Positions 4,098-43,393 of a stretch of DNA of 64,000 nucleotides are shown piece after piece; position 1 is the stretch's first letter; each line of letters starts with the position of its first letter. The translations under genes and the position numbers were made by a program. Source of the stretch: Nymphaea colorata (lineage: Eukaryota > Streptophyta > Magnoliopsida > Nymphaeales > Nymphaeaceae). The notes beneath the pieces are model-generated. The model saw only the letters and a program-made list of their open reading frames with translations. It had not been told where the DNA came from and searched no databases. The stretch covers positions 8,464,204 to 8,528,203 of the forward strand of contig NC_045139.1 of the NCBI RefSeq assembly GCF_008831285.2. The letters are read 5' to 3'.

Positions 4098-5540
4098 CTA
4101 AACATGACAGCCAACATTCTTCAACAGGACATTCAGGTTGAGAGCAGAGGAGCCTCCAGCTTCAACAGACTTGCGCACCGTTTCACTAAGCACTGCGGCT
4201 TTCCTTCTCATTTCTCTTGCTTGATGCTCATTACCGAAAACCGCAGTCACTGCCCTCTCTATTTGCTCGCGTCTCACCAATTCTTCGGTCTTCTGTTCTT
4301 CATCGAGCCCCATGAGCTTCTGGTTACCGACAGAAAGGGCAACCCCAAGGACATCCACCACCAGCCTCTCATTGATGTGCTGGTCACCAAACATGGGCCA
4401 TGTTAATAATGGCAGGCCTGCACTTATACCTTCCAACAAGGAATTCCATCCACAGTGTGTCATGAATCCACCTACTGCCTGGTGTGATAGTATTTGCAGT
4501 TGGGGAGCCCATCCTTTGATGACCAACCCTCTCTCCTTCACCCTCTCCTGCAATTCTTGCAGAAACCCCTCTTCCACTGCTCCTCTGATTACCCATATGA
4601 AAGGGTGCTGTGAGGACTCAAGCCCCTGTCCAACTTCCATGAGCTGCGCGCCAGAAAGGGAAGCAATGCTTCCAAAGCAGACATACATCACAGACCTTGG
4701 TTCCTTTGAGTCCAACCATCTCAAGCATTGATCCTCGTCAATGGGGGACTGCTCCTTCCCCTGCTTCTCTTGCCTGCTCCTCCCCTTCGGATGGCTGATT
4801 AGCGACAGAGGGCCAACGGTCCAGAGCTGTTGGCAACCTCTCATCGACTTGAATAGCTCGACATAGGCGGACTCGATCTCGTATGAAGTATTGAAGATGA
4901 CTCCTGCGCTGGTCTTGTCAGACATTCTCATTTCTTTATGAAGAGCATCCATGCCCAAGAGCAGGCTCTCATCCTCATAAGGAACTGATAGTAAGGTTCG
5001 CCTCATCCTCACTTCATGAGGCAAACCAGGGACCGCAAACTCTTCTTCATCGGAGTCGTGGGATCTCATGCCTGCAATGACACAATAGAAGAAAGAATTG
5101 GTCGAGTGAAAGACGTACCTTGGTATCTTGAGCTTCTCTGCTGTTTGCGTAGTCCAGGGGAAGAGAGTGTCCGAGATGATACAGTTGGGTGGCTCCTTCC
5201 TCACAAACTCTTCAAATGGTTGCTGAAGGATCTTGATGCCTAAGACGAACTTCCACAACATGTCAGGATTGGTAGTGGAGTCGAGGTTTTCACAGTCTTC
5301 CGGCAATCCCATTTGTGTGGCAGGAAATGGTAGGTGGACTACCCTCAGTTCGAGTCCCTGGGATCTCGACCATTCTGTCACCGAGTGATACCTGAAGGAG
5401 TTCAGGAGTGTCGTAAGGATGGTGACTTTGCAACTATGGCTAGCGAGGATCATAGCCAGGTCTATCATGGGGTTCATGTGGCCTTGTGCCATCATAGGGA
5501 AAACCACAACATAAGGACGGTGCTGGAACTGGTCTTCCAT
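4098..5540 (-). CDS. UDP-dependent glycosyltransferase, UGT73-like (480 aa)
   Basis: Family-1 glycosyltransferase that moves a sugar, usually glucose from UDP-glucose, to a hydroxyl of a small plant metabolite in the cytosol. The frame is complete and intronless, 480 residues, normal for the family. The N-terminal half has the acceptor side: FPMMAQGHMNPMIDLA with catalytic His21, and the partner Asp124 in CIISDTLFPW. The C-terminal half has the 44-residue PSPG donor box at 344-387, starting WAPQLQILSHQAVGGF, with HCGWNSLLEG in the middle and WPMFGDQHINERLVV around its end. The last box residue is Gln387, usual for glucose donors. The MxFxxQGHMxPMxDLA start, GDQHINE and VGNQ-type C-terminal segment fit family UGT73, known for flavonoid, triterpenoid and steroid acceptors; this placement is by memory, not alignment. 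It lies about 2.7 kb from a P450 array transcribed the other way, so a joint role is possible. Confidence 0.92.
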   Translation of the reverse strand: MEDQFQHRPYVVVFPMMAQGHMNPMIDLAMILASHSCKVTILTTLLNSFRYHSVTEWSRSQGLELRVVHLPFPATQMGLPEDCENLDSTTNPDMLWKFVLGIKILQQPFEEFVRKEPPNCIISDTLFPWTTQTAEKLKIPRYVFHSTNSFFYCVIAGMRSHDSDEEEFAVPGLPHEVRMRRTLLSVPYEDESLLLGMDALHKEMRMSDKTSAGVIFNTSYEIESAYVELFKSMRGCQQLWTVGPLSLISHPKGRSRQEKQGKEQSPIDEDQCLRWLDSKEPRSVMYVCFGSIASLSGAQLMEVGQGLESSQHPFIWVIRGAVEEGFLQELQERVKERGLVIKGWAPQLQILSHQAVGGFMTHCGWNSLLEGISAGLPLLTWPMFGDQHINERLVVDVLGVALSVGNQKLMGLDEEQKTEELVRREQIERAVTAVFGNEHQAREMRRKAAVLSETVRKSVEAGGSSALNLNVLLKNVGCHV

Positions 5541-6379
5541 GGCAGCTAGCTATTGAACTTTTACGTCGTCGGTGCTAAGAGATATAGTTGTTGATGCAAT
5601 GATTGTTGAGCCGCAGTATGCAATATTGTAGGTCGAATGAGGGTTGCTCTGGTGCATTCAAATTTGACGATTTTTTAACTAGGTTGTGAAGAAGGGTCTG
5701 GACCTTTTGGCTAGTGGAGTGCGGTGCATCGCTTGTCGCTTTAGCTACCGAAAGAATAATAACTTTTCGTTTTCTTCTTGGAAGTGATGTTCAAGAAATA
5801 AATTTCTCAAAGATACACGCCTTCCTTAACTCAAATGAATCTTTAGGCTTTGCATTGATAATGGGATCTGATTGTAATACTATGAGTCTGTCCTTAATAA
5901 CTTGGTAAACGTATCCATATTTACTGTTGATCCCAAGCAGTACTTGTAATCTTTGAAATTTTCAAAGTGGATGGTGGTGATGCAAGAGCATTTTCACAGC
6001 ATACCCTCCACCCAAACAAACCTCTCTTTATCTTTTTCTTTTTGTTTCCACTAGCTTCCTTCCCTCTAAACATAGCCTCAGCGTATATTGTGAAGTTCAC
6101 GCGTGGCTTTAAAATTGAGGCTTATCAAGCAACCTGGCTACGTGTTTGTTTAAATTACGTTAAAATTGATAAGCTGGACACTCGTGATTCGTGGATGCGT
6201 CATTTATTTGTTTGGCACCATATTTAAATGAAAGTTTGAAACCGCAGGCCTACTGTTTTAGGCTGTAGTGGCTATTTGTTTGATTCCTTCCATCCTTTTT
6301 ATTTTTTTGGAGAATAAAGAGTAATTAGGACGCGTCTAGTATAAGTGACACTAACGTGCATTAATCCGCAACTAACTTA
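5541..6379. other. Upstream region of the UGT gene
   Basis: AT-rich, no coding frame recognised. It must contain the minus-strand UGT promoter. I saw no TATA box convincing enough to mark. Confidence 0.4.
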
Positions 6380-7508
6380 GGTTGTGTTTGGATGACACTT
6401 TTAAACTCGGTTTTAAGAGGCAAAACGATGTTTTGCCTGAGAAACCATATTCTTGTGGAGTTTCAATGACCTTGAATTGGGTCTCTCTAAAATTCAGTTT
6501 CACACAAATCCTGGTTGAAATAACGTTTTGAAAAACGTGGGGCCCCTGATTTTTTCATCCAAAATGTCGATTTGGGGTTAGGGGTAAGACATGGTAATTG
6601 AAGCAATAGCGGCACTACGACAGGATGTGGTTAGGGATGAACACGAGTCGAGTTGAGCCCGAGTTCAGTAAGCTCAAGCTCGGCTCGACTAATGAAACCT
6701 CGAGCTTGACTTGGCTCGAGCTCAAAAATAGCTCGACGGAAGCAGCTCGAGCTCGACTCTGTTAAGGTTCGACAAACTCATTTGAATATCATTGATATTC
6801 ATTATTACGTATTGAGTTCGAACTCGATTCGATTAAGGCTTGACAAACTCGTTTCAATAGAATTGATTGTTGATCTCAAGCTCAATTCGATTAAGGCTCG
6901 ACAAACTTGTAAACTCGTTTGAATATATCGATTTGATTAAAGGCTTGACAAACTCGATTAAGGCTCGAGCTCGACTTGAAAGTTACGTGTTGAACTTGAA
7001 CTCAACTCGATTATTTGAACGGATCGATTCATGAACTCGAGGTCAACTCGTTATGCAAATGACTCGAATCCAACTCGTTCACGAGCCAAGCTTTAAGGAA
7101 TTGAGCTACTTGAGAGAGCTTTGAAATAGGTTTTGATAGGGGTTTACGTTTTGAGTGCGCGTAAAGGCTTTTCCCTTTAGTGTGCTTTCTGCAAACAATG
7201 ATGGGGAATTGCAGCACATTACAAACGCATTAATAGGTGATATTATCTTGGTTAGAGAAGACATAACCAAATAAAAACCAAGACTACTTTAATTGTTTCA
7301 TTTAATTGGATTCAACATTCATGTGAACTTGATTTTTTAAAATTACATCAAAACATGGTTTTTGTCATTCAAACAAAAAACCAAGTTTAAAAAATAAAAT
7401 CCTACTTTTCCTGTTGTCATCCAAACAAGAAAACCATGTTTTAAAATCTGGTTTAGAAAACTAGGTTTTCACAACCAGGTTTTGTAGGCTGTCATCCAAA
7501 CGCCCTTT
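6380..7508. mobile_element. TIR-bounded non-autonomous DNA element (about 1.1 kb)
   Basis: The left end reads GGTTGTGTTTGGATGACAC and the right end CTGTCATCCAAACGCCC; GTTTGGATGACA is a perfect inverted match between ends. A TTA lies just outside the left end, and another TTA lies two bases beyond the right end, which would fit a PIF/Harbinger-like 3-bp target duplication, but the outermost bases pair poorly. The interior near both ends is rich in AAACC/GGTTT-type words, and the middle (6640-7080) holds a degenerate repeat array. No transposase frame is present. A shorter relative sits at 16.5 kb. Confidence 0.5.
6640..7085. repeat. Degenerate tandem array with CTCGA / GATTAAGGCTCGACAAACTCG motif
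   Basis: The core word TTAAGGCTCGACAAACTCG recurs with changes near 6762, 6833, 6892, 6937 and 6959, separated by CTCGAGCTCGA-type strings. Spacing is irregular (about 20-70 bases). It is embedded in the TIR-bounded element. Confidence 0.65.
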
Positions 7509-8231
7509 TAATTGCATATACTAGCATCTGCACGCAACAAATTATTAAAATCGAAGATATCTTAAAAAAATTTTATAATAAAGTTTACCATTTAATTTTT
7601 CATTTTTTATAACTTTTTTCATTCTTTTCAATTTCTTTTTCGAGACGTATGTTGATCAATATATCTGTAGACGTAACTGGCTTCGTGTTCATCTCTTTAG
7701 ATGTGCAGAAAATCAGAAATGCACAGGTAGGAAGGCCCCGCAACTCATCAAAGGGTGTCAGGAAACGCCGCGCGTTAGCTCATGAGAAAGCAACCACGTG
7801 TAGACAGCCCTTTCAGAACTTCAAAAGCCAAATAGCCAGGTCGAGTGCTTCCATGGGGCCGGAATGTATGGTTAATTATATGTTAATTGGGATCATCTGA
7901 TTATTTGTTTCTTTAAATTTATTATTTTTTGAATTATTAAACTTTAGAAGCTTTATTAATTAAATATACATAAATAGTAGAAGCCTGGATAGGTTTAATT
8001 AAATATACATGCATGGCAGGGCGCCCCTTCGGCCCACCAAAGGTTGCCTTGTTGGGGAGTTTTTCAGAAGCTTTTACAGCGTACTATTTCCTACAGAGTC
8101 GTCTCCTTTACGACGACTGTAAAGCATCCCGATAGAAGACAGCCAGCTAGCTGCCTTGTCAGATACGTGGCTTCAGCTCCCCCTGCTAGCACTTACGTAA
8201 CCTTCATCCAAGTGAAGCGTTTCAGCTCAAG
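7509..8231. other. Upstream region of the first plus-strand P450
   Basis: AT-rich sequence with no gene recognised; it should carry the promoter and short leader of the P450 starting at 8232. No confident TATA box was located. Confidence 0.4.
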
Positions 8232-10247
8232 ATGGCTCCTAATTTCTTTCTCCTAGACGGCCAGCTCGGTGTTGCATCCGTCTTAGCCCTTCTTCTTCCC
8301 CTGTTCCTTACTTACGTCCTGCTGCTGAGAAGATGGAAGCACAAGGGTTCAGTTCAGCGGCGTCCTCCGGGGCCGTGGCAGCTCCCGATCATCGGCAACC
8401 TGCACCAATTGGGTGCCCTTCCTCATCGCTCCCTCCACCTCCTATCTCAGAAACACGGCCCCCTCATGTTCCTGAAGCTCGGCCAGCTCCCCACCTACGT
8501 CGTTTCGTCGGCGACGGTGGCGAGAGAGATCTTGAAGACCCATGATCCCGTATTCGCCAGCAGGCCACGGCTTGCTGCCTTTGGTGTTTTTGGCTTTGGA
8601 TTCTCGGACGTTACCTTTCAACCATATACTGAGGCGTGGCGCCACTCGAGGAGGCTATTCGTCGGGAACTTCTCGGGCCCGAAGAAAGCACAGTCATTCC
8701 AGTCCGTGAGAGATGAGGAAGTAGGCCTTCTGGTTGACGCCATCTCTCGTTCCACTGGCCCTGTTAATCTGAGCCACTTGGTTCATTCTCTTAATAATAA
8801 CATAATCTGTAGGATTGCTCTTGGGAAGAAATTTAATGAGTATGGGCAGAAGGGCAGGTTTTATGACACTTTCAAAGCGGCCAGGGAATTGCTTGGAGGG
8901 TTTAGCCTGGGTGATGTCTTCCCATCCATCAAGTGGGTGGATTGGCTCACTGGGCGGCAGCTCAAGCTCAGAAAGAGCTTCCATGGATTGGATAGTTTTC
9001 TTGATGAAGCGCTCGGAGTTCACACTGATCCACAGAGGCGGTCCGAAGAAAAAGACTTCGTTGATGTGTTGCTTGAAGCTCAAAAGGATGAAGGCCAGGA
9101 GATCCCTCTTACCACAAACCGCATCAAAGGATTACTCTTTGTCTGCATCTTGACTCCGTTGCCTCTTTCAATTTTAGCGCCCGCCCCCTCTTCAGATGCA
9201 TGTTTAATTTATATCCTTTCTATGAACAATCAAACAAGCTAGGTTCATTTTTCCTCGTTTCATTTTTGTCTAGCTATAAACCTGCAAGAACAAAAAAAAA
9301 AACTACAAATTGCTTTGTCATAGTAGGTTTTTTTCTTCCCACAGCCTGGCATTTTAGAGTTTTTCTTTCTCTCTCTCTCTCTCTCTCTCTCTAAAGCCAA
9401 GCATGGGTAGGGAAACTATAAACAGAAAAGCAAAACAAGGCGTCAATGGCATTAGGAAGCATAGATCTTTGCTATTCTAACATCTAGCTAGAGGAAAGTA
9501 TATGCAAGTTGTTTGAAATATCATGTGCCCCCTTTGGCTATGATACCTCCATATACCTGAAAACTTGGGTGACGCTGGTTTTCCAGAACTTGACAGTGTG
9601 TTCTTCTTCTTCTTCTTTTTCATTTGCAGAACGTAGTCCTCGGTGGATCTGATACATCATCCGCTCCCGTGGTGTGGGCAATGGCTGAGCTGATGAGGAG
9701 ACCTCAGGTGATGAAGCGAGTTCAAGATGAACTGCGACATAAGATCAAAGGAAAAGACAAGGTGGAAGGGAGTGACCTTGAGCAGCTTGAGCTTCTTAAG
9801 TTAGTGGTGAAGGAGACGCTAAGGCTGCATCCATCACTACCAATGTTGGTTCCTCGAATCTCTATGGGAGAGTGTAGTATCGATGGCTATACCATCCCAG
9901 ACAAAGCAGTCGTCATTGTAAATGCATGGACAATAGGGAGAGACCCCAATTCATGGGAGAACCCTGGAGAGTTTCAGCCTGAGAGATTCATGAACAGTTC
10001 GATTGACTACAAGGGCCAAGACTTCGAGTTTATACCGTTCAGCTCAGGAAGAAGGATGTGTCCTGGTCTCTATATGGCACTGGCAGTTATTGAGCTCGCA
10101 CTGGCTAATCTGCTGTATTGCTTCGATTGGAGTTTCCCGAGTGGGCTAAGTGCTAATGACATGGACATGAGCGAGTCTCCTGGTATAATTGTGCATAAGA
10201 AATGTGAGTTGGTTCTCATTGCGCATCCCTACGCAGCATCCAAATGA
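8232..10247 (+). CDS. Cytochrome P450, CYP71-like, intact (508 aa, two exons)
   Basis: Haem monooxygenase anchored in the ER membrane, fed electrons by cytochrome P450 reductase. Exons are 8232-9140 (303 codons) and 9630-10247; the 489-bp intron is phase 0, with GT at 9141 and ttgcag before 9630. An N-terminal anchor (about residues 12-33) is followed by the proline hinge RRPPGPWQLPIIGN. Helix C has WRHSRR (Trp136, Arg137). The I-helix reads VLGGSDTSS at 306-314, a Gly-Gly version of the A/G-G-x-D/E-T oxygen-activation site. ExxR is KETLR (364-368), PERF is at 420-423, and the haem loop FSSGRRMCPG has Cys447. All catalytic landmarks are present and no stop or frameshift was seen. It is closest in this window to the gene at 17.1 kb. 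The CYP71 clan is clear; the subfamily and substrate are not. Confidence 0.93.
9366..9392. repeat. CT microsatellite in P450 intron
   Basis: A run of about a dozen CT units inside the intron of the P450 at 8.2 kb, followed directly by AAAGCC. Confidence 0.85.
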
Positions 10248-10427
10248 ATCAAATTGTGTTTCTCCTTGTTGCCCCAGCCTTTTGCATGCCGGCACTTTGA
10301 AGAAGACGGTGAAATGAACCAAGATTGCTGTCAGAAGCCTCCTAATCGGCAAAGCCATCGGATAAGGGGATCTTGCTCAGGTTATGTTATTAATATATTT
10401 ACGAACCATGTGACGATGTTTTGAAAG

Positions 10428-10690
10428 AGAAAGTTGCAATCTTCTGTTTGTTTTATTGGATGTACTGTGTAATGGAAGTGAATTGCAAATCTAAGCACGG
10501 CATTAATGATGGATGGTGCTAATTGCAATCTTTTGTTTCTTCCATGGATGTGCTGTGGAGTAGAAGTGTATGAAAATCTAAGCACCGATGAGTGGCATTT
10601 TCATCTCATGAAAATGGAATTAATGACCGTATTGTCTTGAGAACTGATGAGGGGCGTTTTTAGCTTCATGAATGAAATTGAATTGATGAC
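10428..10690. repeat. Tandem repeats in the P450 3' flank
   Basis: Two head-to-tail units of about 90 bp start TTGCAATCTTCTGTTTG (near 10434) and TTGCAATCTTTTGTTTC (near 10523); each ends with ATCTAAGCAC. A second pair, GATGAGTGGCATTTTCATC and GATGAGGGGCGTTTTTAGC, follows. Single versions of the TTGCAATCTTTT segment also lie 3' of the P450 remnant (near 13212) and of the gene at 17.1 kb (near 19044), so this is an ancestral 3' segment that multiplied here. Confidence 0.75.
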
Positions 10691-12240
10691 TATACTTTCT
10701 CGATCTAAAAAAAATCAAACTGACAATTGAACTTTTTCTTCAACCCAACTAGATAGAGTAAGGGTAGATATTCGACCAGACCTAGCCAACTATGCTAAGG
10801 GTGGATAATATTGTGCTTACCCATCAGCCTAACCACTGTGTGGATAATATCGAACCTAACCAGTAACCAGCTACGCTAAAGACAGATGAGAAAGCTAGCT
10901 AGTGGAGCGGACAATGGAGCAAAGTGGAGCCTGGTAAAAGCTAGCGGCGGATAAGGGAGCAAATGAAGCGGGGGCGTGACTACGCGTGAGCTATGGATGA
11001 GCTTGAGCGCAATGCGAAGCAATGAAGCCAATAAAAACTGACAAGACCGCTGGCTGGTCTGTCTGAATTTGACAAGGTTGTGTCTTCTTTCTTTAACAAG
11101 CGTAATCACGTCTTTTTTTTTTAAATGATTATTTAGTATTCAGTAGGGGTTGGATGCTGATGCTCATCCTTATCTTTTTCAATGGAAGGCTGATTATCAT
11201 ACGGCCAGAATTATGAATTCAAATAAATACGAGGGGCTAAAGAGCAAAAATTTCCCTAAATCGAAAAAAACTAAAAAAGAAAGCTCAACCCTATAGAGTA
11301 AAAAAATGAAAATACCCTTATAAGATAAAATAAAAATAAACAATCCTCACAGAAAATAAATAAAAAATGTATTGACAAATATATACTAAAGGTGAAAAGA
11401 CAAAAAAGTCCTTAAACTGAAAAGAAAAAAAAAAACAAAGAACCAAGGACAAAAATGGAAGACTACAAAACTTGAAAGGTAGGGCAATATAGGCATGGAC
11501 GGCTAATTCAAAAGATGAAATCTCCTTATTGGGCCACCTTTCTCTCTTACCTAACGATTAATTTGGCTAGTTATAAAAAAATATTATCCAAGAGAAATTT
11601 TGGTTTCCATCTTCTCCATCTAACTTGTCGGCCGAAAATAAATGACAGTAATAGATGAAACAAATGAGAGCAGCATGACATAAAGCTGCAGGGTCACATT
11701 ATATCCATATAATTAGCCACATATATGGTAAAGAACGGATCAGAAAAATCCCCAGAAATATATAAAAGTGGATTACGTGCAAAAAGACCACGTCTCTTTC
11801 AAAGGATCAAGCTGAAATTAAGGCATATCACAAGATTGATCAACATGTAGGAATTTTGCTCTATTGCCTTCGCAAATTAACATTTCCAAAAGCATCGAAA
11901 ATTCCTAATGGCGTGACAAACTTTTCAATATTTTATAACTAAGGTGGAAGCGGGCGATGCAAAAAGTAATCAAACCTTGGTTTCTCTTAAGCCTAATTTC
12001 GAACCAGTTTAGCAAAGTTAGTTATGTGCGCCATACCTGTGCACCGAATTTCATGTGTCACACTATGGTTAATGACAAAATTAACCCTCGTTCACAAAAA
12101 AAAAAAGGTTTTTGGTAAAATAAAAATGAAAAAAAAATGATATAATTACAAAGGACACACTTTTTTTTTAAATCACAAAAACATAGCCCTTATATAGGAA
12201 AAATATGAACAGAAAAGCCATAATTTCTCTAAGTAATCTA
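10691..12240. other. Intergenic AT-rich region
   Basis: No gene recognised. A stretch near 10750-10870 has repeated CCAACTA / GGATAATAT wording; the rest is A-rich low-complexity sequence. Confidence 0.5.
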
Positions 12241-12770
12241 TAAAATCCAAATTATTTCAGTTAGGAACCAAGGCATAAAGTATAAAATATATAGACAAAA
12301 GCATTAACAAGGGCGTGAATGAACTTAGAAATTAGACACAGGTCTTTGCTATTCTAACTTCTGGCTAGAAAGTATATGTGGTGGACACCTAAAGAAGCAG
12401 TTTGAATATCATGTGCTTCTTGGCTATATTAATACCTACATACATCTGAAAACTTGGGTGACGCTGGTTTTCAAGGAATAGACAGTGTCCTCCTCGATCT
12501 TCTTCTTATTCTCCATTTGCAGAACGTACTCTCCGGTGGATCTGATACAGCATCGTCTCCCGTGATATGGGCAGTGGCTGAGCTGATGAGGAAACCTCCG
12601 ATGATGAAGCGAGTCGAAGATGAACTGCAGCTTAAGATCAAAGAGAAAGACTAAGTGGAAGAGAGTGACCAGTCTGTTTAAATGCTAATGACATAGACAT
12701 GAGCGAATCTCCTGGTTTAATTGTTCATACGTGTGAGTTGGTTCTCCTTACCCATCCCTACCATTGTCAC
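12240..12770 (+). pseudogene. CYP71-like P450 remnant (intron end plus gutted exon 2)
   Basis: The sequence from about 12330 to the acceptor at 12522 matches the intron of the P450 at 8.2 kb (shared GTCTTTGCTATTCTAAC and GAAAACTTGGGTGACGCTGG), showing a genomic duplicate, not a retrocopy. Exon 2 starts at 12523: NVLSGGSDTASSPVIWAVAE, then a stop at 12652 where the intact gene has Lys. About 10 bases on, at GAGTGACC, roughly 360 bp are missing compared with the intact gene, so ExxR, PERF and the haem loop are gone; the tail NANDIDMSESPG resumes near 12683 in another frame. Exon 1 is absent. It cannot make a P450. Confidence 0.88.
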
Positions 12771-13949
12771 ATATATAGTGTACCAGTATTATATGGTGAA
12801 GAATTTCTACAAAGTTGTATTTCTTAGAAATATCTTGAAAAAATTTCGACAAATTTTTAAAAAATGTAAGACATTTAATAAATCCTAAAAATTATAAAAA
12901 ATAATATAAAATTTTCACGTTTTTTATTTTCTGGTGTTTTTTTTAAAAAGACTTGTCTTATTTCTCGAGTATTATACCTGTCTTTTTCGAACAATGAGTG
13001 TTTTGTATAACAATGATCCTTGCTGACCATGTACATCCAATTGAGTCAACCCGTGCTGCCCTTGTTTTCCGGACCTCTCATGCACTTGAATATGAGTCAT
13101 GTAGCACTGCACCAACAGTGTGAGAACCCTCCTAATTTCAGATTGCTTAAGGGAGTCTTTATGTTATGAATATATGATGAACTATATAAGAATAAATAAA
13201 TGTAAGAGAGAATTGCAATCTTTTGTTTGCCTTATGGATGTTTTATATGCTGGATGTGTGCAAGTGAGTTGGAAATCAAGCTAGCGTGGTGCACCTTTCT
13301 GCCCAAAGAATCGTAGCTGCTTGCCAACTTTCATAACTGGGCACGATGCGTTTAAGAAATGCAGAGAATCGGAGAAGAAGAAACAAACTCATACGAGCAT
13401 GTATAAATAGGGTTTTCTTTTTCTGCAACATTCATCACCTGAATCAATATTGTCAATACACAATCACCAAAATCAATATTGTCAATATACAAACGAAAAT
13501 CATGTCCAATCCCAGACTGGTAAACCAAAGAAACGAGAATGAAATAACAAAAACCAGTTTCATCTTTCCCAGTTTGGGGGTCGCGTGTCTTACCATTTGT
13601 AGTTTAGGAGGATAGCAATTATGAATTCAACTGGAGTCATGCTTCATATGTTCTGCCTACCGGACTAGCTACATTACACTCCTTGAGACAAGTACTCTAC
13701 TAGCACAATTAAGAAACAACTATTTATTATAAAAAGTAAATGCTGGTGAGATGTAGATTGGCTGAGGGAAATGAGATTTTTTCTAATGTTTAGATCTACT
13801 GAAACATCATTCAACTTGATTTTTCTCTAACGTAACGGCATGTTGCCAACATGAGATACTTGAAGAGTGGGTTAACTTCCTATCAATTGTCCATTCATGG
13901 CCATGACATGGGCCAAGATCAGAAATCTAAGCTGTCTGATGTCGTTTTG
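12771..13949. other. 3' flank of the P450 remnant
   Basis: The segment near 13140-13290 resembles the 3' flanks of the P450 genes at 8.2 and 17.1 kb. No other gene seen; a short plus frame at 13346-13615 has no recognisable domain. Confidence 0.5.
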
Positions 13950-14530
13950 TGAGTTTGCACCTATATCGGGGAATCATGAACCTTCCGTAGTTTAAAAAGT
14001 AGAAGCGGTAGTCAAAGCTAGGAAAACATTTCCAGCTTGATACATTTGATTGGATATGTGGCTGCATCTAATAGCTGAATGGTTTTCTTCCCGAAATATT
14101 TGGCAAATCACACAGTCTTTTTTGAAGAATTTTCTTGAATTTCCATGAGTTGCGATTTGTGGTTTGTATTTGAGCCTTGATTGTCCTGGGCTTTGTGAGA
14201 AGGTCGGTGCTCATTTTGAGTAAAACCTCATCATTTTGAGGAGAAATTTTATAAATATTCTTGTATTGTCCCACAAAAGCTAGCAATGTTCTGATTTGGT
14301 CTGACGTTTAGTCCCTGAAAATTTCTAAAAGTATCTTAGCTTTGGAGGAGACCAACATGTTGTTTGTAGGTGGGAATATGAGGTTTCATCACGTCAATAA
14401 CAGAAGATTCATTCTCAGTACCTAAACCATTCAACAATGTGAAAACCATTTGTTTGTTGCTAACATCTTTCGTGAGAAAGTTGTGTGCACCATGGTCGTG
14501 TAGGCAACACATATGCAACCACACAAAAGA
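13950..14530 (-). pseudogene. Ty1/copia gag remnant
   Basis: On the minus strand, MVFTLLNGLGTENESSV followed by LLQS resembles the UBN2-type gag core of copia elements (LLNGLGPEYESFV pattern). Further along, CVICQIF with ENHSAIRC, read across a frameshift, resembles a copia CCHC zinc knuckle. Several stops and shifts break the frame. No LTR was located around it. Confidence 0.55.
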
Positions 14531-16513
14531 AGGTGAGAGTTAGGGTATATTAGAGACTTTTCATAGACCAGAAGTCTTATTACATAGGGTGGTGCACAAT
14601 TTTTGGTGCTCCAGCTTCATTTTCCCATATTGCATACTTTTGACTATGTGAGTTTGACCCAACTTTGACTCCACTTGCTTTTGACTATTTACGTGGACCT
14701 TTGGCACTGTTACTATTTCATGAATCTGCATTGAAAACTTTACTACTTTACTATAGTATTTTATGAACTCGAGTTAATCTTTGAGGCAGGTTTATGATCA
14801 CATGTTAACATTTTGTCCTTATTGTCAAATGGCCTCAGCCCATGAATTGTTTGATGACTTTTATAGGAGGCCGACCGGACATGAGATGTAAGAAAGGTGT
14901 ATGTCACTCTCTCAAGAGGAGTGGTCCTAGTAGTGTAGATCTGGCATGAATTACACAGATGTTCGGCTTAAATGATACCGCTGGTCTAGTACCTAATGGG
15001 GATAACCAATACAATACATGATGTATGTAAGGATGTCAACAGATCAAATTCAAATTGGATATACTTTTAATTATATCTAATTTTTCGAATGTTTGCGTGT
15101 TCACGTCGAAGTCGGATTAAATAAAAATGAGAAAACTTACGATATCCGAGCCCAAATCCGATTTGACAATACGAATTCGGTTTTGAAGTTATCAGAATCT
15201 GAATCAATATTCTAAACCGAATCAGACTAGCTCACTTTCAAAATATAAGAATATTGGATATAAGATAAAAACTAAATAACACAGCAAATGGTAGAAAGAT
15301 ACTGACGACCAATAGACCTGAAGTATAAAGTAAGCAAACCAGAAGTCACCCGGCCTCGAAGTTATTAGTTGTGAAGTCCTGTCTAAACTGTCTGTTAGAG
15401 ATTGGCGTTTGGTGATGTTAACCTTCCATTTTGAAGAAACAAGGCCAGATTCCAGCTGAGGTATAGATGGCAACCAATACTTTTTACACTATTATAGGTG
15501 TTTTTCCGTGTTGCTAAAACTTGGGATGCAGGGTTACCTGGAAAGAGCATACACGTTTAACAGAGATCATATCCATTTCCAGGAAATATAATTTTTTTTG
15601 GACTATTCTCATTCTATGAATTGCATTATGGAAATAGACATTCTATATATTGGTCGTTCCATAGAAATACAAAGGGTATTCATGTTGAGCAAAAAAAGGG
15701 GGAGGGACCATTTTGGTCAAATTTCTCTTCCATGCAAAATTAATGCTTATAAAAATTCAATGTTACTACCAATCAAACAGTAAAAAAAAAATCTAGAAAC
15801 GTTTAAACTTGTCCATTTCTGCTCAATTTTCAATTCCAAGTTTTAGTGTAGACATTGTTCTTGAAAACTTTTTCTGAAAAATGCTTTTGATCTAAAAAGC
15901 TTTGAGGGCCATCAAATGCTTTTATCAGCATGTAGGTCTTTTTCTAGCATTGAGTATGCAACTCTTTCTAGCCGCCATGCTGATATGACAAGGGACCGCT
16001 ATGTTGTTATTATATATTGCAAGGAGACAGACATTTGTAGGGCCCGAGCTTCTTCAACCTAAACAAAACCACCGGAGCCGGGAATACCATCTAGCTTTGG
16101 TCCGGATTATGGTAAAGCTATCTGATTCATTCAATGGTACTAATTTACTACAGTTAAAATAACAGAAATCTAAGATTGACACAAATATGCACTAGGGAAA
16201 AAAAAGTAGAGAAAGAGGGGGATGTTGGGGCATTTTGGGGGTTTTAGAAAAGACTTTTTTTTTTTTTAACTTTTAACATTTTTTTTTTGTCTTTGTGAGA
16301 CTTTTCTTTTTTGCTAATTAAGGGTATTTTGGTCATTATATCACCCAATGCATAATTTTTTTTGTATTCAAAGCAGTGCATATAACCAGTTTTGCACCAA
16401 GCACCAACACCCTTAGCACTGAAGCTGCTTATACGCACAGAGCTTGGCAACACCTTGGTCAGCTAAATGGGAATCTTCCTACAAAGACCAAAAAGATAAA
16501 GCAAAGGTCAAGC
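14531..16513. other. Intergenic region with diverged repeats
   Basis: No gene recognised. The part near 15030-15240 is rich in ATCCGA / TTCGGAT-type words and resembles 52180-52920 and 49190-49300, suggesting a scattered repeat family of unknown type. Confidence 0.45.
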
Positions 16514-32420: not shown

Positions 32421-33711
32421 ATGGCTAGTGCATCACCAATTCAATGGAATGCCGCTGCTGCGTTGGTCTCTGTTAAACTCAACAGAGAAAACTACCTGTT
32501 CTGGCAAAGTCAACTAGATTCAGTAATGGACTCTCAAGATCTTTTTCTGTTCATTGATGGTACTCAAGTTGAACCATAGAAAGAAATTACAAAGGACGGC
32601 AAGACTGAAGTGAATCCCGAATTTGTCGCATGGAGAAAGATGGATCGTCTTGCATTAAGCTGGACCAAGGCAATGGTTACGGAAGCTGTGTTGGGGCAGA
32701 TTATGCGCGTCAAAACTGCCCATGATGCTTGGTCGACTCTTGAAAATTCTTATGGTTCTCAATCTCCTTTGAGGATCATGTTGCTGTGTAAGGAGTTGCT
32801 TCTTCTCAAGAAGGGAAGTATGTCTATGCAAGTTTATTTAGATAATCAAGTTTTTTTTGGATGCTTTATCCACTGCTGGTCAAGATATTTCCGATCAAGA
32901 CCTAGTTCAAATCACTCTTAATGGGCTGTCGTCAGAATATGAAAGTTTCATAACCATGCTTACTGGTCCATCATCGTCAAAGATATCATTTTCTAAACTG
33001 TTTGATCTTCTCATGAATTAAGAAAAACAGCTTGCCTTACTTAAGTCGACTTCGATAAACCCAATTGAATTTGTTCAGCCAGCATCGCAGGTTGTTAACC
33101 AAACTGCGTTCAGTGCCTTTCGTGGGCAACGCCGAGGCCGAGGGTTTTTCCGTGGTCGAGGAGGAAGGAATCAAGGTGGCTGTGGAAAATTTTTCCAAGG
33201 ATGTGGACATCAGTCCCAGCAACGAACGGATGAACGTGTTGCCAATCAACAATATCAACGTCAGCCAATTATTTGCCAATATCGTGGATGAAAAGGGCAC
33301 TTGGCTAGAACGTGCTATGACATTCCTCAGGCCTACTCCGCCATGAGTCTGCAAGATTCAATAAATGAATATTGGTATCCGGATACCGGTGCTACCAATA
33401 ATATTGTAGCAAGTGATGATATGATGTACAACAAAGCTCCTCAGGATGGACAAGAGAACGTCATGATTGGTAATGGCTCTCGCCTTTCTATTAAGCAAAC
33501 TGGCGATCTATTAGTCGATGTTAGTGGAAATTCCTTTCAACTCAAGAATATTCTTCATGTTCCCACTATTGCTCATAATCTATTATCGGTCGGACAATTT
33601 ACTACTGACAATGGTTGTATTTTTGAGTTCTCACCATATGATTTTGTGATCAAGGATCGGAAAACAAATAAGATTCTTCTTCGGGGACCAAAGAAGTGCA
33701 ATGGACTTTAA
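32421..33711 (+). pseudogene. Copia gag-protease remnant
   Basis: Starts MASASPIQWNAAAALVSV and continues with NYLFWQSQLDSVMDSQ, a UBN2-type gag. A stop at 32577 (where Trp is expected), a frameshift near 32850 and a further stop near 33007 break it. An Arg/Gly-rich stretch (GRGFFRGRGG, about 33137-33166) precedes a damaged zinc knuckle near 33270 in which the second Cys is Arg and a stop follows. The protease motif YWYPDTGATNNIVAS is at about 33370 and the protein ends at GPKKCNGL. Integrase, reverse transcriptase and RNase H are missing; sequence after 33750 is P450 intron, so the element is cut off at its right side. Confidence 0.88.
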
Positions 33712-33749
33712 CCCATTATGCTTAAGAGAGCTGGCGAGATTCAAGAAAT

Positions 33750-33985
33750 ATTCAAACTGTAGTATACTTTATTATAACTTTGTGGTAGCATAACTGAGGA
33801 AAAGGTAAAGAGTATGGAACACGTTTTGAAACTGTGGATGGATTGTTTAATAAATAAAATTACAGTTAACTGTTCATAGAATAGATTCTAGTGTATCAAT
33901 TTATGACACAAACCCATGTGAAAAAGCTAGTATTAGTACATATATGGACCCCATAGAAGACATGACAGAAGGAATCAAAATAGGA
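33750..33985 (-). pseudogene. Orphan fragment of a P450 intron
   Basis: Matches 44430-44670 closely (shared TAACTTTGTGGTAGCATAAC and TTTATGACACAAACCC) and the introns near 25225 and 41735 more weakly. It contains no exon. It lies between the copia remnant and copy 2, and marks a further copy of the P450 unit that has been nearly wholly lost. Confidence 0.7.
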
Positions 33986-34449
33986 CACATATGACCCACC
34001 TTCCATCAGAGGAGGGAGAGAGAGAGAGATAGAGAGAGCATGGAAGACAGAGAGGGGGCATACCTGCTGTCGATGGCGAGCAGATGAGGGTGGCCGTTGC
34101 ACTGCATTATTAACGGAAGGATGAACAAGAAGAAAGCACTGGGAAGGGGTGTTTCTTTGCGCGCGAAGGAGAAAGGGTTGTGGACGAGGGAGAATAGTTC
34201 CCAGATCCAGCGGGAATTTTGATTCCAGAATTAAAATCGGACTCCGAGGGTTATATTTTGATTTCAGAAGTTTGATTCTAAAATTGATCCATAATTCCAG
34301 AATCAAAATGCTGCTGTATTGGATTAGGTGATTCTCGTTTTTTCAAAAACAATAATTTTCATTCCAAAATTCCAGCAACTCTATGAATCAAACGCCCCCG
34401 AAAGGAGAGTCCAAGTCAAGGAATTCTTCTTCCTGTTGATGGAAACTTG

Positions 34450-34750
34450 CAATGCTTTATTGCAGGACATTGCATATTCCTTGGTGGTGCATTGGTTTCA
34501 TGGAAACCAGGAAATAAAATACAGTGTCGCTTTCTTTGCCAAAAGTAGAATATAGAGCTTTAGCCAACACAGCTTGTCATTGTGTGGTTAAGAGCTGTCC
34601 TCAAGGATCTTCAAGTGAAGATTGATTTACCAACCACTTTGTATTGCGACAACAAATCGGCCTTGCAAATAACTGGTAATCCTGCGGTCCATGACCGAAC
34701 AAAACATGTTGAAAGCTATTGTCATCACTTCATCGAAAGCAGACATGAGT
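34450..34750 (+). pseudogene. Copia RNase H fragment
   Basis: Reads FLGGALVSWK, then VEYRALANTACH, and after a frameshift WLRAVLKDLQVKIDLPTTLYCDNKSALQ in pieces, with the catalytic CDNKSA and the RTKHVE motif. Part of duplication copy 2; the shorter partner is at 22900-22990. Confidence 0.8.
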
Positions 34751-34964
34751 GAACAAATTCCTTTTCTTTAGTCCAAACTGAGTTTGTTCAATATATACGC
34801 TCCTTAAATGGTCTCTTGAAACAGTATTAGCAAGGGCATGTCAGGTTGAATCATATGTTGCTGCTTTGTAATTACTGTAGTGTAGGTGATGCTACTGGAA
34901 GGATTCATTCATTTGCATTATAGAAAGTATAAACCATGTATTTGTGAAAAAGGGATTGCAAAGA

Positions 34965-35003
34965 AAGAAGAAGAAGAAGAAGAAGAAGAAGAAGAAGAAG
35001 AAG
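34965..35003. repeat. GAA microsatellite
   Basis: Run of about 12 GAA units, immediately left of an ACGTGGTTCGG motif common in plant LTRs (near 35010), at the left junction of the copia block. Confidence 0.88.
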
Positions 35004-35284
35004 ATTTTTACGTGGTTCGGTATATATTCATCTACGTCCACGAGAGGGGTCCTTTCCACTATATTTTGTGGAGAGGTTTTATCACTATTTATAATGCTTG
35101 CACATCAGGTTTCTCCTTGATCTTAGGAGAGATTACATCCTTATCATTATTCCTCTTATGAGTTGTACAATAGTCTTTAATACTACTGTCGGTTTTGGAT
35201 TGACTTGCTTTGTTAGGTTGTTGCATTTTTGGATCGCCATCTTCCTTACTAACAATGGCTGATTTGCCTTTGTCATTATCTGCT

Positions 35285-37160
35285 TCAGTAGGCTGTTTCT
35301 TCGCAGTCCAAGAGATACAATGTGTTCCGATGAAGGTGCAATAACTGGTAGTAGAGCTTCGAGTGTCAAGACATCCTACCCAATCAGAATCAGAGAAAGC
35401 ATGATGCCAAAAATCCCTCTGAGGAGAAAGGATACAGCCATCAGAAATGGTGCCATGAATGTAGCGAAGTATACGCTTGACAAGTTGGAAATGACTATTG
35501 TTCGGTGTCGGCATATACTGACATAATTAACACTAAATAATATGTCAGGTCGAGTGAACGTCAAGTATTGTAGTCGTCCAACTAGACTCCGAAATAAGGT
35601 TGGATCTGGAAAGAGTTTGTCATCACTTGGAGGTTGATAGTGTTGAACCAAAGGAGTAATGACAGGTTTGCAACTGACCAGTTTCACACGTTCTAGTAGA
35701 CTGAAGGTGTATCGTTTCTGATTTAAGAAGAGTCCAGATTGGATTTGAACAACCTCTATACCCAAAAATTGATGAATGTATCCAAGATCTTTCATGGCAA
35801 ATTTAGTACTTAGCTCCTTGACAAGCTGTTGAATAAGGATGTTGTTGCTTCTTGTTAATATGGTGTCATCAACGTAGAGAAGGAGAAAAATAGTACCTTT
35901 GGGCTTCTCGATAAACGAACAGGAAGGAATCATAGATGCTGGTATAAAACCCTTTTGTCAATAAGAATGAACCAAAGTAGTCATACCAAGGTCGAGGAGC
36001 CTGGAGAAGTTCATAAAGTGCTCGGTGAAGGCGACAGACGTGTGTTGGTTTGGATAGATCAATGAACCCTGGAGGTTGTTCAATAAAAACCATTTGATCC
36101 AAGTTGCATGGAGAAACACATTTTTGACATCAAATTGTTTGATGTCCCAATTGTTGGTTAATGCAATAGTGAAGACGATGCAGATCGTAGCCAGTTTGAT
36201 AATAGGAGAGAAGGTTTTCGTAAAATCAATGCCGGGAATTTGATTGAATTTGCAAGCGACGAGTCTGGCCTTCAAGCATCCCAAAGTACCATCGCTTTTC
36301 AGTTTTGTTTTAAAAACCCAGCGCGTACTTACCACATTCATGTTTGGCTGCCGAGGAACAAGAGTCCAAGTCTTACAGTGGTGAAGGGCATTTAGTTCTT
36401 CTTTCATTGCTGCCATCCAACCATCATGCATTAAGGCATCTTTCACAGTTTTGGGTTCTAGGAGAATACTCATAGTGAGAAAATATCGATAATTGGGCTT
36501 GGTAACACCAGCCTTTGATCGAGTAACCATGGCATGAGAATTTGATGAAGTATGATTGAACTCGTCATGTGATTCCCTTGTAGTATCAGCATTTGTTGGT
36601 GATAACTCAGCTGGAGGAAGAATTAGACTTTCTTGATGCGAGGGCTCATCACGGGAAGACATGAGTTCTCCTACAGAAGGGGATAGCACGGCTGGTTGAT
36701 GCATGGAAGATGCGTGAACATCCAAAATATCCAAACTAGTTGGTGACGCATCTTGAGGTGGAAGCTCTTCATGATGCATACGAGAGGTGTTATCATAAGA
36801 GTCAACGTGCTGCCTATCAGTCGAATCGCGAACGTCCTAAGGAGGCTCTGTCCAATCATTGAAGGTGGTTGGATGCAGCTGTTGATCAAACCTTGAGAAC
36901 AATATTTCAAGCTTCTGATAAGGAAAATAAGCTTCAGCAAATACTACATGTCATGAAATATATACTCGGCCAGTAGGAGGATATAGACATCGATAGCCTT
37001 TATGAGTAGAACTATACCCTAAAAAGACACATGGTAACGATCTTGGCTCAAATTTATGTTTGGCATAATCTCCCACGTAAGGAAAATAACAACTCCCAAA
37101 TATACATTCTCCTCTCACGAACTTTTTATTTACCAACTTCATTAAGACCACAAACCAAGT
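35285..37160 (-). pseudogene. Copia integrase-end, RT and RNase H remnant
   Basis: Minus strand, in order from the right: the post-integrase segment with FLGYSSTHKGYRCL and GRVYIS (about 37000), a variable linker, reverse transcriptase with WVFKTKLKSDG and the catalytic LLYVDD near 35880, then the RNase H start with SDSDWVGC and TSYCTFIGTHCISWTAKKQP ending at 35290. Frameshifts and stops occur near 36840, 36100, 35940 and 35515. RNase H is cut after KKQPT; the sequence beyond is unrelated. No LTR pair was identified. Confidence 0.88.
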
Positions 37161-37837
37161 AATGACCCAATATTGGAATCATGCTTGATGGTCTACAATC
37201 CATATCCCTTTTCAACAACTTTTCCTTCTTATATACAATAATTATAACAACGAAATCTTATATGTATGTTGTGGTAGAACGACTTTAGATGAATGTTGTG
37301 GTAGGAATGTTTTATATTCTTTCAATCATATAGGATAAATGCATCTATGCATTCTCACCCACTTTATTTCACTTATGATCACAAGCATATCTCCAAAAGA
37401 ACTTAAGCAAGAAGGGATAGAACTCTAGCTAAGTGGTAACCGAATTAGAGTAAAATCTCAAACCTACTTAAAATCTTAAGAGAACACTAAAATGATTTCA
37501 AAATAATTTCACAAGCTTTTCAAATGATATTTACTAGTTACACTTTTTCCTCAAATCATTTCACACTTTCAAGCAACTCTTCAAGAACCTTTTCAAAAGT
37601 TTGAAACTTCAAACTTTCAATATTTTTTACACCGCATATAGAATAAAAAAGATGTTTAAGTTAAAACGAAATGCATCAATGATAAACATAGCCCTTGGGT
37701 TGATTACCCCCGGTAAAGGTGCCGGGAACGGTCGATCCTCGTACCGACGGGCGAGTTCCTTTCTTTCCTCTTTCAAAACAAAAACCTCATTTTTCTGGAG
37801 CACTCCAAAACCAATGAAAATTTTGGGATGCAAACAT
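37161..37837. other. Spacer between opposed copia remnants
   Basis: AT-rich with one GC-richer patch near 37690-37755 (CCCCGGTAAAGGTGCCGGG). No coding sequence recognised. Confidence 0.45.
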
Positions 37838-40064
37838 TGCTGCCTATTTAATCAATCGTTTTCCCACTCATCCTTTACATGACAAAACCCCTTATGAGGT
37901 TCTTTATGGGCAAACTCCCAAATATGATCATATCTAGGTTTTTGGCTGCTTATGTTATGCTTACAACATTGGTAAGACTCATACATTTGACTCACACTCA
38001 CGCACATGTGTTTTTGTCGGATACACCTTTGGTCAAAATGTGTAAACTTTATGGTCTTGAAACTCATGAAATTTTTACTAGTCGAGATGTTAAGTGTATA
38101 GAAAACATATTGCCTTTTCAAAACCACAAAGACCAAGATAGTGGCGTTGTTATGCCTCCTCTATCTCAAGAATCATTTGAATATGACTACCAGCCTCATG
38201 GCCCTACAACACAACAACCAAATCAACCTCCATCATCTACATCGACACCCGCACCACAGTCATCACTCCCATCGTCAGATCAACACCAACCCACCATCGT
38301 TGATACTATCACCACCAACCTTGATTCCTATGAACCTTCATTACGGCGATCAAACAAACGACCTGTTCCACCTTCACGACTTAAGGATTATCAATGTCAC
38401 TCTACCGCACGACCCACATCATCCGAATCAACATCGGCGCCTATGCAACCTAAAGGAACAAGGTATCCCATGAGTCAGTACCTCCATTTACACAAGTTTT
38501 CTCATAAATACCAAGTGTTTCTTACATCTAGTCTCAACCACCATGAGCCGTCAACTATCCAAGAAGCAATGTAACATCAAGAATGGAGAGATGCTATGGC
38601 GGTTGAAATTCGGGCATTAGAAACAAACTCGACTTGGTACGTAGTTTCTCTCCCACCAGATAAACACTCTATTGGCTGCCGATGGATATATAAAATCAAA
38701 TATCATGCTGATGGTACTACCAAGCGTTACAAAGCTCGCCCCGTTGTTAAGGGTTATACTCAAACAAAAGATATTGATTACATAGAGACTTTTTGTCCTG
38801 TCGCTAAAATTACCACCATTCGATGTCTCTTATCTGTTGCAACCATCAAAGGATGTAGTCTTTTTAAAATTGATGTCAACAATGCCTTCATCTATGGTGA
38901 TCTATAAGAAGAAGTCTATATGATGCTTCCTCCTAGCTTTACCCGACAAGAGGAGAATAAGGTGTGTCGGCTAAACAAATCCTTATATGGTCTCAAACAA
39001 TCATCTCACAACTGGTTCTTTAAATTAACAAAGACCTTCAAGAAACTTGACTTCTCTCAATCTAAGGCAGACTATTCATTGTTTACCAATATCAACAAAC
39101 AAGGCAGTATTTTCATTGTATATGTTGATGACATAATCATTGCAGGAGACCATCATGATGCCATCAAGAAGTTGAACTCAATAGAAAATTTCAGTTGAAA
39201 GATTTGGGAGAGTTAAAATATTTTTTGGGTATTGAAGTCGCTTAATCCAAAAAATGGATATTCTTATCCCAAAAGAAGAATATGATGGATATCTTATATG
39301 AAGTCAGATACAGTGGTGCCAAACCTAGTGAAACACCAGTGGAACAACATTTAAAATAATATGATGAGAGTGGGCAATTGTTAAAAGATCCCACCTTTTT
39401 CAGAAAAATAGTTGGTTGTTTGGTTTATTTAACCATTACACGACCCGATATTTTGCATAGTGTTCACATGTTGAGTCAATTCATGTCGCAACCACGAACA
39501 ACTCATTTAGAGGTAGCTTTCAGAATACTTCGATACATCAAGTCGATAGCAAGTTATGAGATTCTATTGTCATCCCATAGTGACATGATAATCAAAGCTT
39601 TTTGTGATTCGGATTGGGCTTTTTGCCCAATGACAAGGAGATCCACTTCAGGCTTCTGTGCTTTCATTGGAGAAAGCCCAATATCTTGGAAAGTTAAGAA
39701 ACAAACAATTATTTCGAGGTCTTCTGCAGAAGCCGAATATAGAGCAATGGCATTAACTTCTTGCGAGATGACTTGGATAAGGTACATTCTTAATGACATT
39801 GGAATTACTCATCATCAAACAATAGAATTGCATTGTGACAATCAAGCAGCAATACACATATATGCAAATCCGGTGTTCAGAACGAAACATATTGAAGTTG
39901 ACTGTCATGTTGTTCGAGAGAAGATCCAAAGAAAAGATATTTATACTAAGCAAATAGACACTGAAAATCAAATTGCAGATGTTTTTACTAAGGCATTGGG
40001 AAAGGATGCGTTCGTAAAATTTAGATGCAAGTTGGGTCTCATTGATCCTGGAGCAGCAACTTGA
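37838..40064 (+). pseudogene. Copia pol remnant (integrase end to RNase H)
   Basis: Starts AAYLINRFPTHPLHDKTPYE and VLYGQTPKYDHI, the C-terminal integrase signature, with a stop at about 37936. Then a Pro/Thr-rich linker, reverse transcriptase with CRWIYKIKYHADG and IVYVDDIIIAGD (near 39120), and a full RNase H with CDSDWA, SSAEAEYRAMA and CDNQAA, ending ADVFTKALGKDAF and a natural stop at 40064. Stops occur near 38572, 38907, 39243 and 39357 and a frameshift near 39190. The left part (gag, protease, most of integrase, 5' LTR) is missing. Confidence 0.9.
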
Positions 40065-40070: not shown

Positions 40071-40071
40071 G

Positions 40072-40608: not shown

Positions 40609-43393
40609 TCACTTCGATGGTGAAAAATGCTTGGCAAGGAGAACCAGTGCTTCTCTTTTGTGCACAGTCGAGCCTGGAGCTTCAATCATGTCGATGTCTT
40701 CTAGGAGCTTCCCACAGGGCAGCTCCCAATCGAAGCAGTAGATAAGATTAGCAAGCACAAGCTCCACTACCGCCATTGCAAAATGGAGTCCTGGGCACAT
40801 CCTTCTCCCCGATCCAAATGGTATGAACTCGAAGTTTTTACCCTTGTAGTCGAAATGGCTGTTGATGAATCTCTCTGGTATGAATTCTTCTGGGTTCTGC
40901 CATGAATTGGGGTCCCTCCCAATTGCCCACGCATTCACAATGACCCTCGTTTTGGCAGGGATGGAGTACCCACCGACATTACACTCTTGGGAAGATACTC
41001 GAGGAACCAGCAATGGAAGTGGTGGGTGCTGCCTTAAGGTCTCCTTGATCACCAACTTAAGATACTGTAATTGGTGAAGGTCGTTTTCTTCTACCATGTC
41101 CTTTGTTTTCAGTGCAAGTCTGAGCTCATGTTGCAGTTTTTTCATGGCCTCGGGCTTTCTCATCAGCTCAGCCATCGCCCAAACCAAGGTAGCTGATGCA
41201 GTTTCGGTTCCACCTATGAATATATCCTATAAAAATGGGAAGAGAGGGGTTCGTATAGAGTACTCTAAAGTTCATGAAATTGGAAAAAGAGGGAACATAC
41301 AGGCGTCATAGAACAAATTTTTACTAATAATCAGAAAATAACAGTACTACACTTCTATTTCATGTTTCTGAAGTTGATATTCTATTGAACAAACCGATGT
41401 TTCTTGCATTTTATCCTATCATGCAAAAGTATCGTCAAGCTTCTATCACTGCACTACTACAAAATAGTCACATGCACTGCTATTAGGCGAGAATGAAGAA
41501 ATTCCCATCGATCATTAATATTTGTTCCTTTTTCTTACTGCTTTATCAAAAAAACTAGTCACGGATTCATCTCCGATGAATTTTTAGTTGTCGTCTGGAT
41601 CGGTCAATTAAATAGCCTTGATGTTCTCCGTGTAATATTAAAAGGATAATTTCAATTTAAAATTTTTATTTAGTGACTAATATATTTTACAGCGTTGGTG
41701 GACGTCATACTTCAATACGTGTTGAATTATATATTCAAACTGCATACTCTATTATATTTTATTATAAATTCTCTTAGCATAATTGAGCTGAAGATCAAAC
41801 GTATCACACGTGGAACACAACTGTGAATCGATGCTTTGATAAATAATATTTCGGTTGACAACTGTTCATAGAATAGGACACAAGGCTACTGCGTATAGAG
41901 AAACAGTTCTTGTGACCAAACAACTGATAAAAATATTTTATCAACATTAAAATAATTGCAAATGCTGTAGCATATCTGAAAGCTTCTGTCAAATGACCAT
42001 AATTCCATGTCTACCTTCCAGAACCCGAACCAATTCTTATTTGTGATTTAGGAACAGTTTGGTGTAACTGTTTCAGATCCAAAAATTGGAACAGATTTGT
42101 TTTTAAGTGTTTTAACAATCCATCTCAAATTTTAAAGCAGATTCATGATATAATTATAAACTGTTCTATCTACTAAACGGGCCCTTGGTCGGCCTCAACG
42201 CCCAACTAACGTTTATAATGAGATTCGAACCTGGATGTTTTACTTTCTAGTGTGTGGATAAGATTTTTGAATGGAAGGAATTGAGGTAGCTTGGCCAAGC
42301 ATTGATCTAGCTAGAAAACACAAAATAGGTCATGTTGTAAACTCTAAAAGGTGAAAGCCAACGTCTAATAAAGTAGGAATTGCTACCAACAAGCGACAAA
42401 TCTACCAACTACACGACAATAAAGAACAGTTCTAAATGAAGCGAAGATAATATGGAAGTCGATGGGAGTGAAGCATATATTAAACAAACCATAAGCATCC
42501 CTTTGATGTTGTTCACCGTAAGGAAGACATCCTCACTTCGGTCCTCCTGTGCATGAAGCAGAGAGTCAACGAAGTCATGTTGCTCTGGTCGGCCCCGTGG
42601 ACCGCTGTGATCTCTGATCACTTCATCATAGAAATGATCCAAATCGTGTAAGTTACTCAGTAACTTGCCATGGAGACCAGTAAGCCAGTCTACCCACTTC
42701 AAGGATGGGAAGAAATCCCCCACAAAGAAAGCCCCAAGCAAAGCTTGCAAAGTCTCCACTGCATCCTGGAACCTACTCTTCCCATATCCTTCTTCCTCAG
42801 GATTATACTTCTTACCAAAGGCGATCCTGCAGATTATGTTGCTAGAGAGAGAAAGTAACATCTCGCTCAGATTCACAGGACCACCGGAGGTGGAGATGGA
42901 CCGGAGCAACATGCCGACTTCTTCCTCTCTCACCGACTTGAAGGAGGACACCTTCTTGGAGCTCAGGAGTCGCAGGATGGCTATGGCCATAGGGTTGAAA
43001 GGCGATGTCCGAGCCTCCATAGGAAAGGGCTGAGGTACTGGCCTGCTGCGGCCTGTTGAAGAAGGTGAGGTCGTGGACCTTCATGACTTCCTCGGCCAGT
43101 TTCGCCGACGACACGACGCAGACCCGGAAGCTGCCGAGCTTAAGAAGCATAAGGGGGCCGTGTTTTAGGGAGAGGAGGTGGAGGGAGCGGTGAAGGGAGC
43201 TTGTGCCGAGCTGATGCAGGTTGCCGATGATTGGCAGCGGCCATGGTCCGGGAGGAAGTCTGAGTGTTGATTTCTTCCATGTCCTCCATTTAATCAGCAA
43301 TACGTAACTGAGGAGGAGAGGAAGCAGGAGTGCTAAAATGGAATATTGGTTGAATGGGGAGTCGAGTTGATGCAGGAAAAAGGAGAGATCCAT
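40609..43393 (-). pseudogene. CYP71-like P450 duplicate, frameshifted in helix C
   Basis: Near-identical duplicate of the gene at 23751-26544. Exon 1 is 43393-42490 and exon 2 is 41226-40609, same phase-0 splice sites, intron 1263 bp. Exon 1 is 904 bp against 930: one Leu codon fewer at the start and a net 23 bp lost near 42983-42990. The loss changes the frame and removes the WRHLKK segment whose Trp and Arg hold the haem propionate. Downstream everything stays readable: KETLR, PERF and FGSGRRMCPG are intact in exon 2, and the second half of exon 1 has no stop. Translation from the ATG ends soon after the lesion at about 42842. A start within the shifted part would lack anchor and helix C. 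Recent death is likely because the rest has not decayed; a sequencing or assembly error should be excluded. Confidence 0.88.

Follow-up and report, generated by a model that had tools for sequence, protein, structure and literature searches.

We analysed a stretch of 64,000 nucleotides of the Nymphaea colorata genome (RefSeq assembly GCF_008831285.2, contig NC_045139.1, positions 8,464,204 to 8,528,203 of the forward strand; hereafter the window), free of N letters, in which an array of cytochrome P450 genes lies beside a single gene for a UDP-glycosyltransferase (UGT). Intact P450 genes are labelled A to C and broken copies A', D, E and F; positions are those of the window.

4098-5540, minus strand: UGT gene, intact, single exon, UGT73 group, 480 aa (open frame, Pfam UDPGT, PDB matches, PSPG box)
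8232-10247, plus strand: P450 A, intact, 508 aa, exons 8232-9140 and 9630-10247 (Pfam, gene structure, motifs)
12284-12761, plus strand: A', pseudogene, intron end and an exon 2 (about 12498-12761) without its middle, with in-frame stops (tblastn, blastn, frames)
17061-18851, plus strand: P450 B, intact, 508 aa, exons 17061-17969 and 18234-18851 (Pfam, gene structure, motifs, PDB match)
23751-26544, minus strand: P450 C, intact, 515 aa, exons 26544-25615 and 24368-23751 (Pfam, gene structure, motifs, PDB match)
33748-33975, minus strand: F, stretch of intron left over from an E-like copy (blastn self-comparison)
43393-40609, minus strand: D, pseudogene, frame broken in exon 1 (43393-42484) (tblastn, alignment)
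45742-45145, minus strand: E, pseudogene, exon-1 piece with stops (tblastn, frames)

The three intact P450 genes translate without stops and are each interrupted by a single GT/AG intron at a position common to all three. The proline hinge (PPGP..P..GN), the I-helix motif GGxDT, and the KETLR, PERF and FxxGxRxCxG motifs are present in every one of them, and their six exon pieces matched the Pfam p450 model with E-values from 1.1e-29 to 3.2e-59. Among solved structures, ferruginol synthase was the top chain for both B (272 bits) and C (280 bits), and the four best chains for the two proteins were ferruginol synthase, sugiol synthase, isoflavone synthase and cinnamate 4-hydroxylase, all of which we take to be plant A-type P450s. 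The motifs, the common intron position and, for B and C, the PDB matches place these genes among the A-type P450s (CYP71 clan). Because the identity of B to ferruginol synthase (31.9% over 451 columns) is below the 40% family rule given in the accessible part of a grapevine P450 survey (PMC6023221), B falls outside the family of that enzyme.

Further copies were sought by tblastn self-comparison of the window with nine query stretches, which recovered all copies except F. With self-matches excluded, the P450 matches ranged from 1.2e-161 (C exon 1 against D) to 3e-5 (a small piece of E), and the similarity among the copies is far above chance. Two tblastn matches (12520-12669 and 12669-12761) make up A', with intron-like DNA ahead of them that starts at 12284 (blastn), and no exon 1 was found for it by tblastn or blastn within the window. 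In D a 23-bp deletion in exon 1 has led to loss of the frame; its exon 2 remains an open frame, with 94.6% identity to exon 2 of C. For E, no exon 2 was found in the tblastn self-comparison of the window. F aligns with the E intron at 89% identity over 227 columns, with a blastn match of 83% to 44431-44674, and is one further P450 remnant beyond the three broken copies A', D and E.

The UGT carries a UDPGT domain (Pfam, E=1.9e-20) and a PSPG box of 44 residues that starts at residue 344 and ends in Q. His 21, within QGH, and Asp 124 are presumably its catalytic residues. Among 114 PDB matches the closest solved chain was UGT73C1 (380 bits), followed by 6lzx, named just 'Glycosyltransferase' (371 bits), and SgUGT73AM30 (365 bits). 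The PSPG box, together with two of the three top solved matches being named UGT73, assigns the protein to the UGT73 group by similarity ranking rather than by a tree; it matches the UGT73C1 and SgUGT73AM30 structures over almost its full length and shares the PSPG box with them. No second UGT or UGT fragment was found by tblastn self-comparison of the window. The gene is flanked by a 68-bp inverted repeat of 81% identity (3965-4030 and 6134-6201), which could represent two small transposon copies or the ends of a gene-holding element. Capture of the UGT by a mobile element, an idea prompted by this repeat, was not pressed, and a target-site duplication was not seen by eye.

A preliminary description of this DNA had proposed a candidate metabolic locus at 4098-43393, made up of three apparently intact CYP71-type P450 genes, three or more P450 pseudogenes and one intact gene of UGT73 type within about 41 kb. 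The gene content was recovered as described, with F in addition to the pseudogenes; the proposed range holds the intact genes, A' and D, and E lies beyond it, up to 45742. The division of the P450s into two related subgroups on opposite strands was likewise confirmed, A and B lying on the plus strand versus C and D on the minus strand, with protein identities of 75.1% for A-B, 58.5% for A-C and 58.8% for B-C. Nonsynonymous (dN) and synonymous (dS) divergences calculated by the NG86 method were 0.137 and 0.395 for A-B, 0.303 and 1.283 for A-C, 0.293 and 1.462 for B-C, and 0.024 and 0.123 for C-D exon 2, the dS values above 1 (A-C and B-C) being close to saturation. Since the dN:dS ratios are well under 1, the intact copies look constrained. 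Over the exon-1 stretch common to C, D and E, identity was 93.1% for C-D, 87.5% for C-E and 85.5% for D-E, and because the first value exceeds the other two, E probably branched off before C and D separated.

The similarity extends into the DNA around the minus-strand copies, for which two partner flanks were delimited by blastn.

27714-30837, strand not assigned: upstream flank of the C unit, recurring piecewise at 46646-49437 (83-92% identity)
46646-49437, strand not assigned: upstream flank of the D/E unit, matching 27714-30837

Within them, 27714-29144 (upstream of C) repeats at 46646-48493 (upstream of D/E) in pieces 83-92% identical, and an additional 123-bp match links 30715 and 49315. 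These alignments indicate that the upstream flanks of C and of D/E belong to a common segmental duplication. C and D also share downstream DNA (22906-23214 matches 34661-34945), the latter now separated from D by Copia-type pieces. Exon 1 of C (26544-25615) and of D (43393-42484) share an identical run of 168 bp, a length reached in 12 of 5000 shuffles, and the DNA immediately upstream of the two exons is just 75.6% identical; gene conversion between the two exons is suggested by this run, and suggested only.

Retroelement pieces and genes of other kinds make up the remaining features of the window.

32259-40064, strand not assigned: Copia-type retroelement pieces between the C unit and D, F among them (Pfam, frames)
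32259-33708, plus strand: Copia gag and Pol_BBD
35379-37178, minus strand: Copia SH3 and RT
38575-39195, plus strand: Copia RT, with a further frame to 40061
288-521, minus strand: one exon of epsilon-COP (coatomer subunit epsilon), near the left edge (Pfam 8.2e-17; PDB 2.8e-08)
55283-57247, plus strand: SOBIR1-like leucine-rich repeat (LRR) receptor kinase gene, intact, single exon, 654 aa (Pfam, PDB)

A scrap of retroelement polymerase SH3 lies on the minus strand at about 46133-46279, and an inverted 58-bp pair of 95% identity (31248-31305 and 31548-31605, spaced about 240 bp) resembles a small non-autonomous DNA transposon. The kinase half of the gene at 55283-57247 scored 515 bits against SOBIR1 versus 205 bits for a BRI1 kinase chain. 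The gene is likely the product of common descent with SOBIR1 (an ortholog) and could anchor comparisons of synteny. The P450 array and the UGT are thus bracketed by the epsilon-COP exon on the left and the SOBIR1-like gene on the right, neither of them a gene of metabolism. Between each of these two genes and the nearer window edge, the scanned frames showed no biosynthetic domain. No Rfam match at the gathering threshold and no tRNA was found in the window, and NCBIfam returned only models scoring under their own cut-offs.

Enzymes that could make a scaffold for the P450s were sought with Pfam in 50 single frames, taken from the 133 of 75 aa or more that run from stop to stop in the window, and in 24 read-through frames, namely all six frames of 45800-55100, 57300-64000, 10300-17000 and 18900-23700 (about 27.5 kb), with stops given as X; 1-4098, 5550-8190 and 26650-32250 were covered by some single frames only. 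Besides P450, UGT, kinase-LRR and Copia domains, the single frames gave one match above its curated cut-off, the coatomer epsilon exon, and a few weak ones below cut-off, and the sole match of the read-through scan was the SH3 scrap mentioned above. No scaffold or further biosynthetic enzyme was therefore detected in these 50 single and 24 read-through frames, from which short exons can escape.

In the accessible part of its description, plantiSMASH by default calls a candidate cluster where three enzyme subclasses in two classes occur together, subclasses being split at 50% identity (PMC5570173). We applied this rule by hand to the locus as bounded by the window edges. Two enzyme classes are present, P450 and UGT. 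A, B and C are 57.9-74.8% identical to one another over the shorter sequence and, being above 50%, count as one subclass, so that the locus holds two subclasses (P450 and UGT) versus the three required. How often such neighbours should arise was estimated by scattering P450 loci (85 or 150) and UGTs (110, 180 or 250, grouped in arrays of 2.5) randomly over genomes of 27,000-45,000 genes, with a neighbourhood of 3 or 6 genes to either side, in 36 settings altogether. On average, random placement gave each genome 0.5-7.1 P450 loci that neighbour a UGT, and the probability of at least one pairing was 0.42-1.00; a single P450/UGT pairing is therefore not notable.

The array resembles arrangements reported in grapevine (Vitis vinifera), where, according to the accessible part of the survey, 452 of 579 P450 sequences (78%) lie in 85 physical clusters with a median of three each, 63 of the 85 clusters contain a single family, and in four of the seven largest the similarity includes non-coding DNA (PMC6023221). 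Adjacent close paralogs, duplicated non-coding flanks, complete genes together with pseudogenes, and the predominance of one family are common to both, as far as that text describes them (PMC6023221). The water lily locus differs in its two subgroups on opposite strands and in the one UGT at one end. On this comparison, the array fits the description of the grapevine physical clusters.

Taken together, the locus is very probably an ordinary lineage-specific array of CYP71-type (A-type) P450 genes, partly decayed, beside one independent UGT73-group gene. This reading is supported by the seven related P450-derived stretches, three of them intact and four broken, by the dN:dS ratios, the lone UGT, the copied flanks and the retroelement pieces, and by the grapevine clusters, the chance estimate and the non-metabolic neighbours; copied flanks, decay and retroelement pieces are the usual signs of birth and death among P450s. 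The array would have been built by tandem and segmental duplication, repeated several times, and part of it later decayed, and retroelement pieces would have inserted between duplicated units. A-type P450s are monooxygenases anchored in the endoplasmic reticulum that serve specialised or xenobiotic metabolism, and UGTs of this family are UDP-sugar glycosyltransferases acting on small acceptors. From family membership, the substrate oxidised by each intact P450 would be a small specialised metabolite or xenobiotic, mostly hydrophobic, and the UGT would transfer glucose from UDP-glucose onto a hydroxyl of a small acceptor, each enzyme probably acting in a context of its own. We found no sequence feature that joins the P450s and the UGT into one pathway. 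The metabolic locus proposed at the outset is thus not supported, given two subclasses instead of three, the absence of a scaffold enzyme from the scanned part, non-biosynthetic genes on both sides and a neighbourhood expected by chance under a simple model; the caveat attached to that proposal, that the P450 array and the UGT may be mere neighbours with no relation to each other, is the part that our results favour.

Several observations weigh against an ordinary array with an independent UGT. The UGT and P450 A are divergent, head to head, with start codons 2691 bp apart, a layout that could allow shared control; with the two genes thus placed within 2.7 kb, a weak pathway hypothesis remains. 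The chance model took only its 85 P450 loci from the grapevine survey (PMC6023221), the remaining numbers being assumed, and in its lowest setting the probability of at least one pairing was just 0.42. The read-through scan returned nothing from 10300-17000, not even A', which lies there, and a lone short exon can escape it, so the absence of other enzymes is not proven, the escape of a whole multi-exon synthase being less likely. The view of the neighbourhood ends at the window edges, and the CYP71-type label of A, B and C comes from PDB matches and from CYP71-like signatures such as GNLHQLG, not from a tree.

Such a pathway could take the form of a two-class cluster, in which one or more P450s hydroxylate a scaffold made elsewhere and the UGT glucosylates the new hydroxyl, the UGT and A being driven from the 2.7-kb interval. 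Besides the divergent layout, A, B, C and the UGT are all intact with their motifs, and papers rich in the term UGT73 deal, in their accessible portions, with triterpenoid saponins. There is also a precedent in the sorghum dhurrin cluster (CYP79A1-CYP71E1-UGT85B1), which, as outlined in the accessible part of its source, likewise has P450s close to a family-1 UGT and no scaffold synthase, two P450s and the UGT forming the pathway (PMC5107947). In the window, by contrast, the P450s form one related group and the UGT is of the UGT73 group. Its score against 7zer, named cyanohydrin beta-glucosyltransferase and presumably UGT85B1, was 148 bits against 380 for UGT73C1, so the protein is not a cyanohydrin glucosyltransferase of the UGT85B1 type. 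The heme motif of A, B and C is FxxGRRxCPG, from which that of CYP79 differs, so that a CYP79-type motif is presumably missing from all three. A dhurrin-like cluster was rejected on the UGT group and, more tentatively, on the heme motif. With only two subclasses at the 50% threshold and an adjacency expected under random placement, a two-class cluster seems unlikely.

A narrower version, which we consider very unlikely, would have the UGT and the A/B subgroup driven by one divergent promoter as a tailoring module with no scaffold enzyme of its own, oxidising and glucosylating a compound produced elsewhere in the genome; C, D, E and F on the opposite strand would then be its older, mostly dead partner set. 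Alternatively, the locus might mark the margin of a bigger biosynthetic cluster, with the scaffold enzyme encoded beyond the 64 kb. The flanks do lie outside the window, but the epsilon-COP exon (one exon only) stands between the UGT and the left edge and the SOBIR1-like gene between the array and the right edge, which makes this very unlikely.

The arrangement is ordinary and, as it stands, matters little; the locus is a clear example of birth and death among P450 genes, with an old split into two subgroups, younger A/B and C/D duplications and the later loss of D. Were the UGT shown to act on products of the P450s, the locus would become a pathway module overlooked by the usual three-subclass rule.

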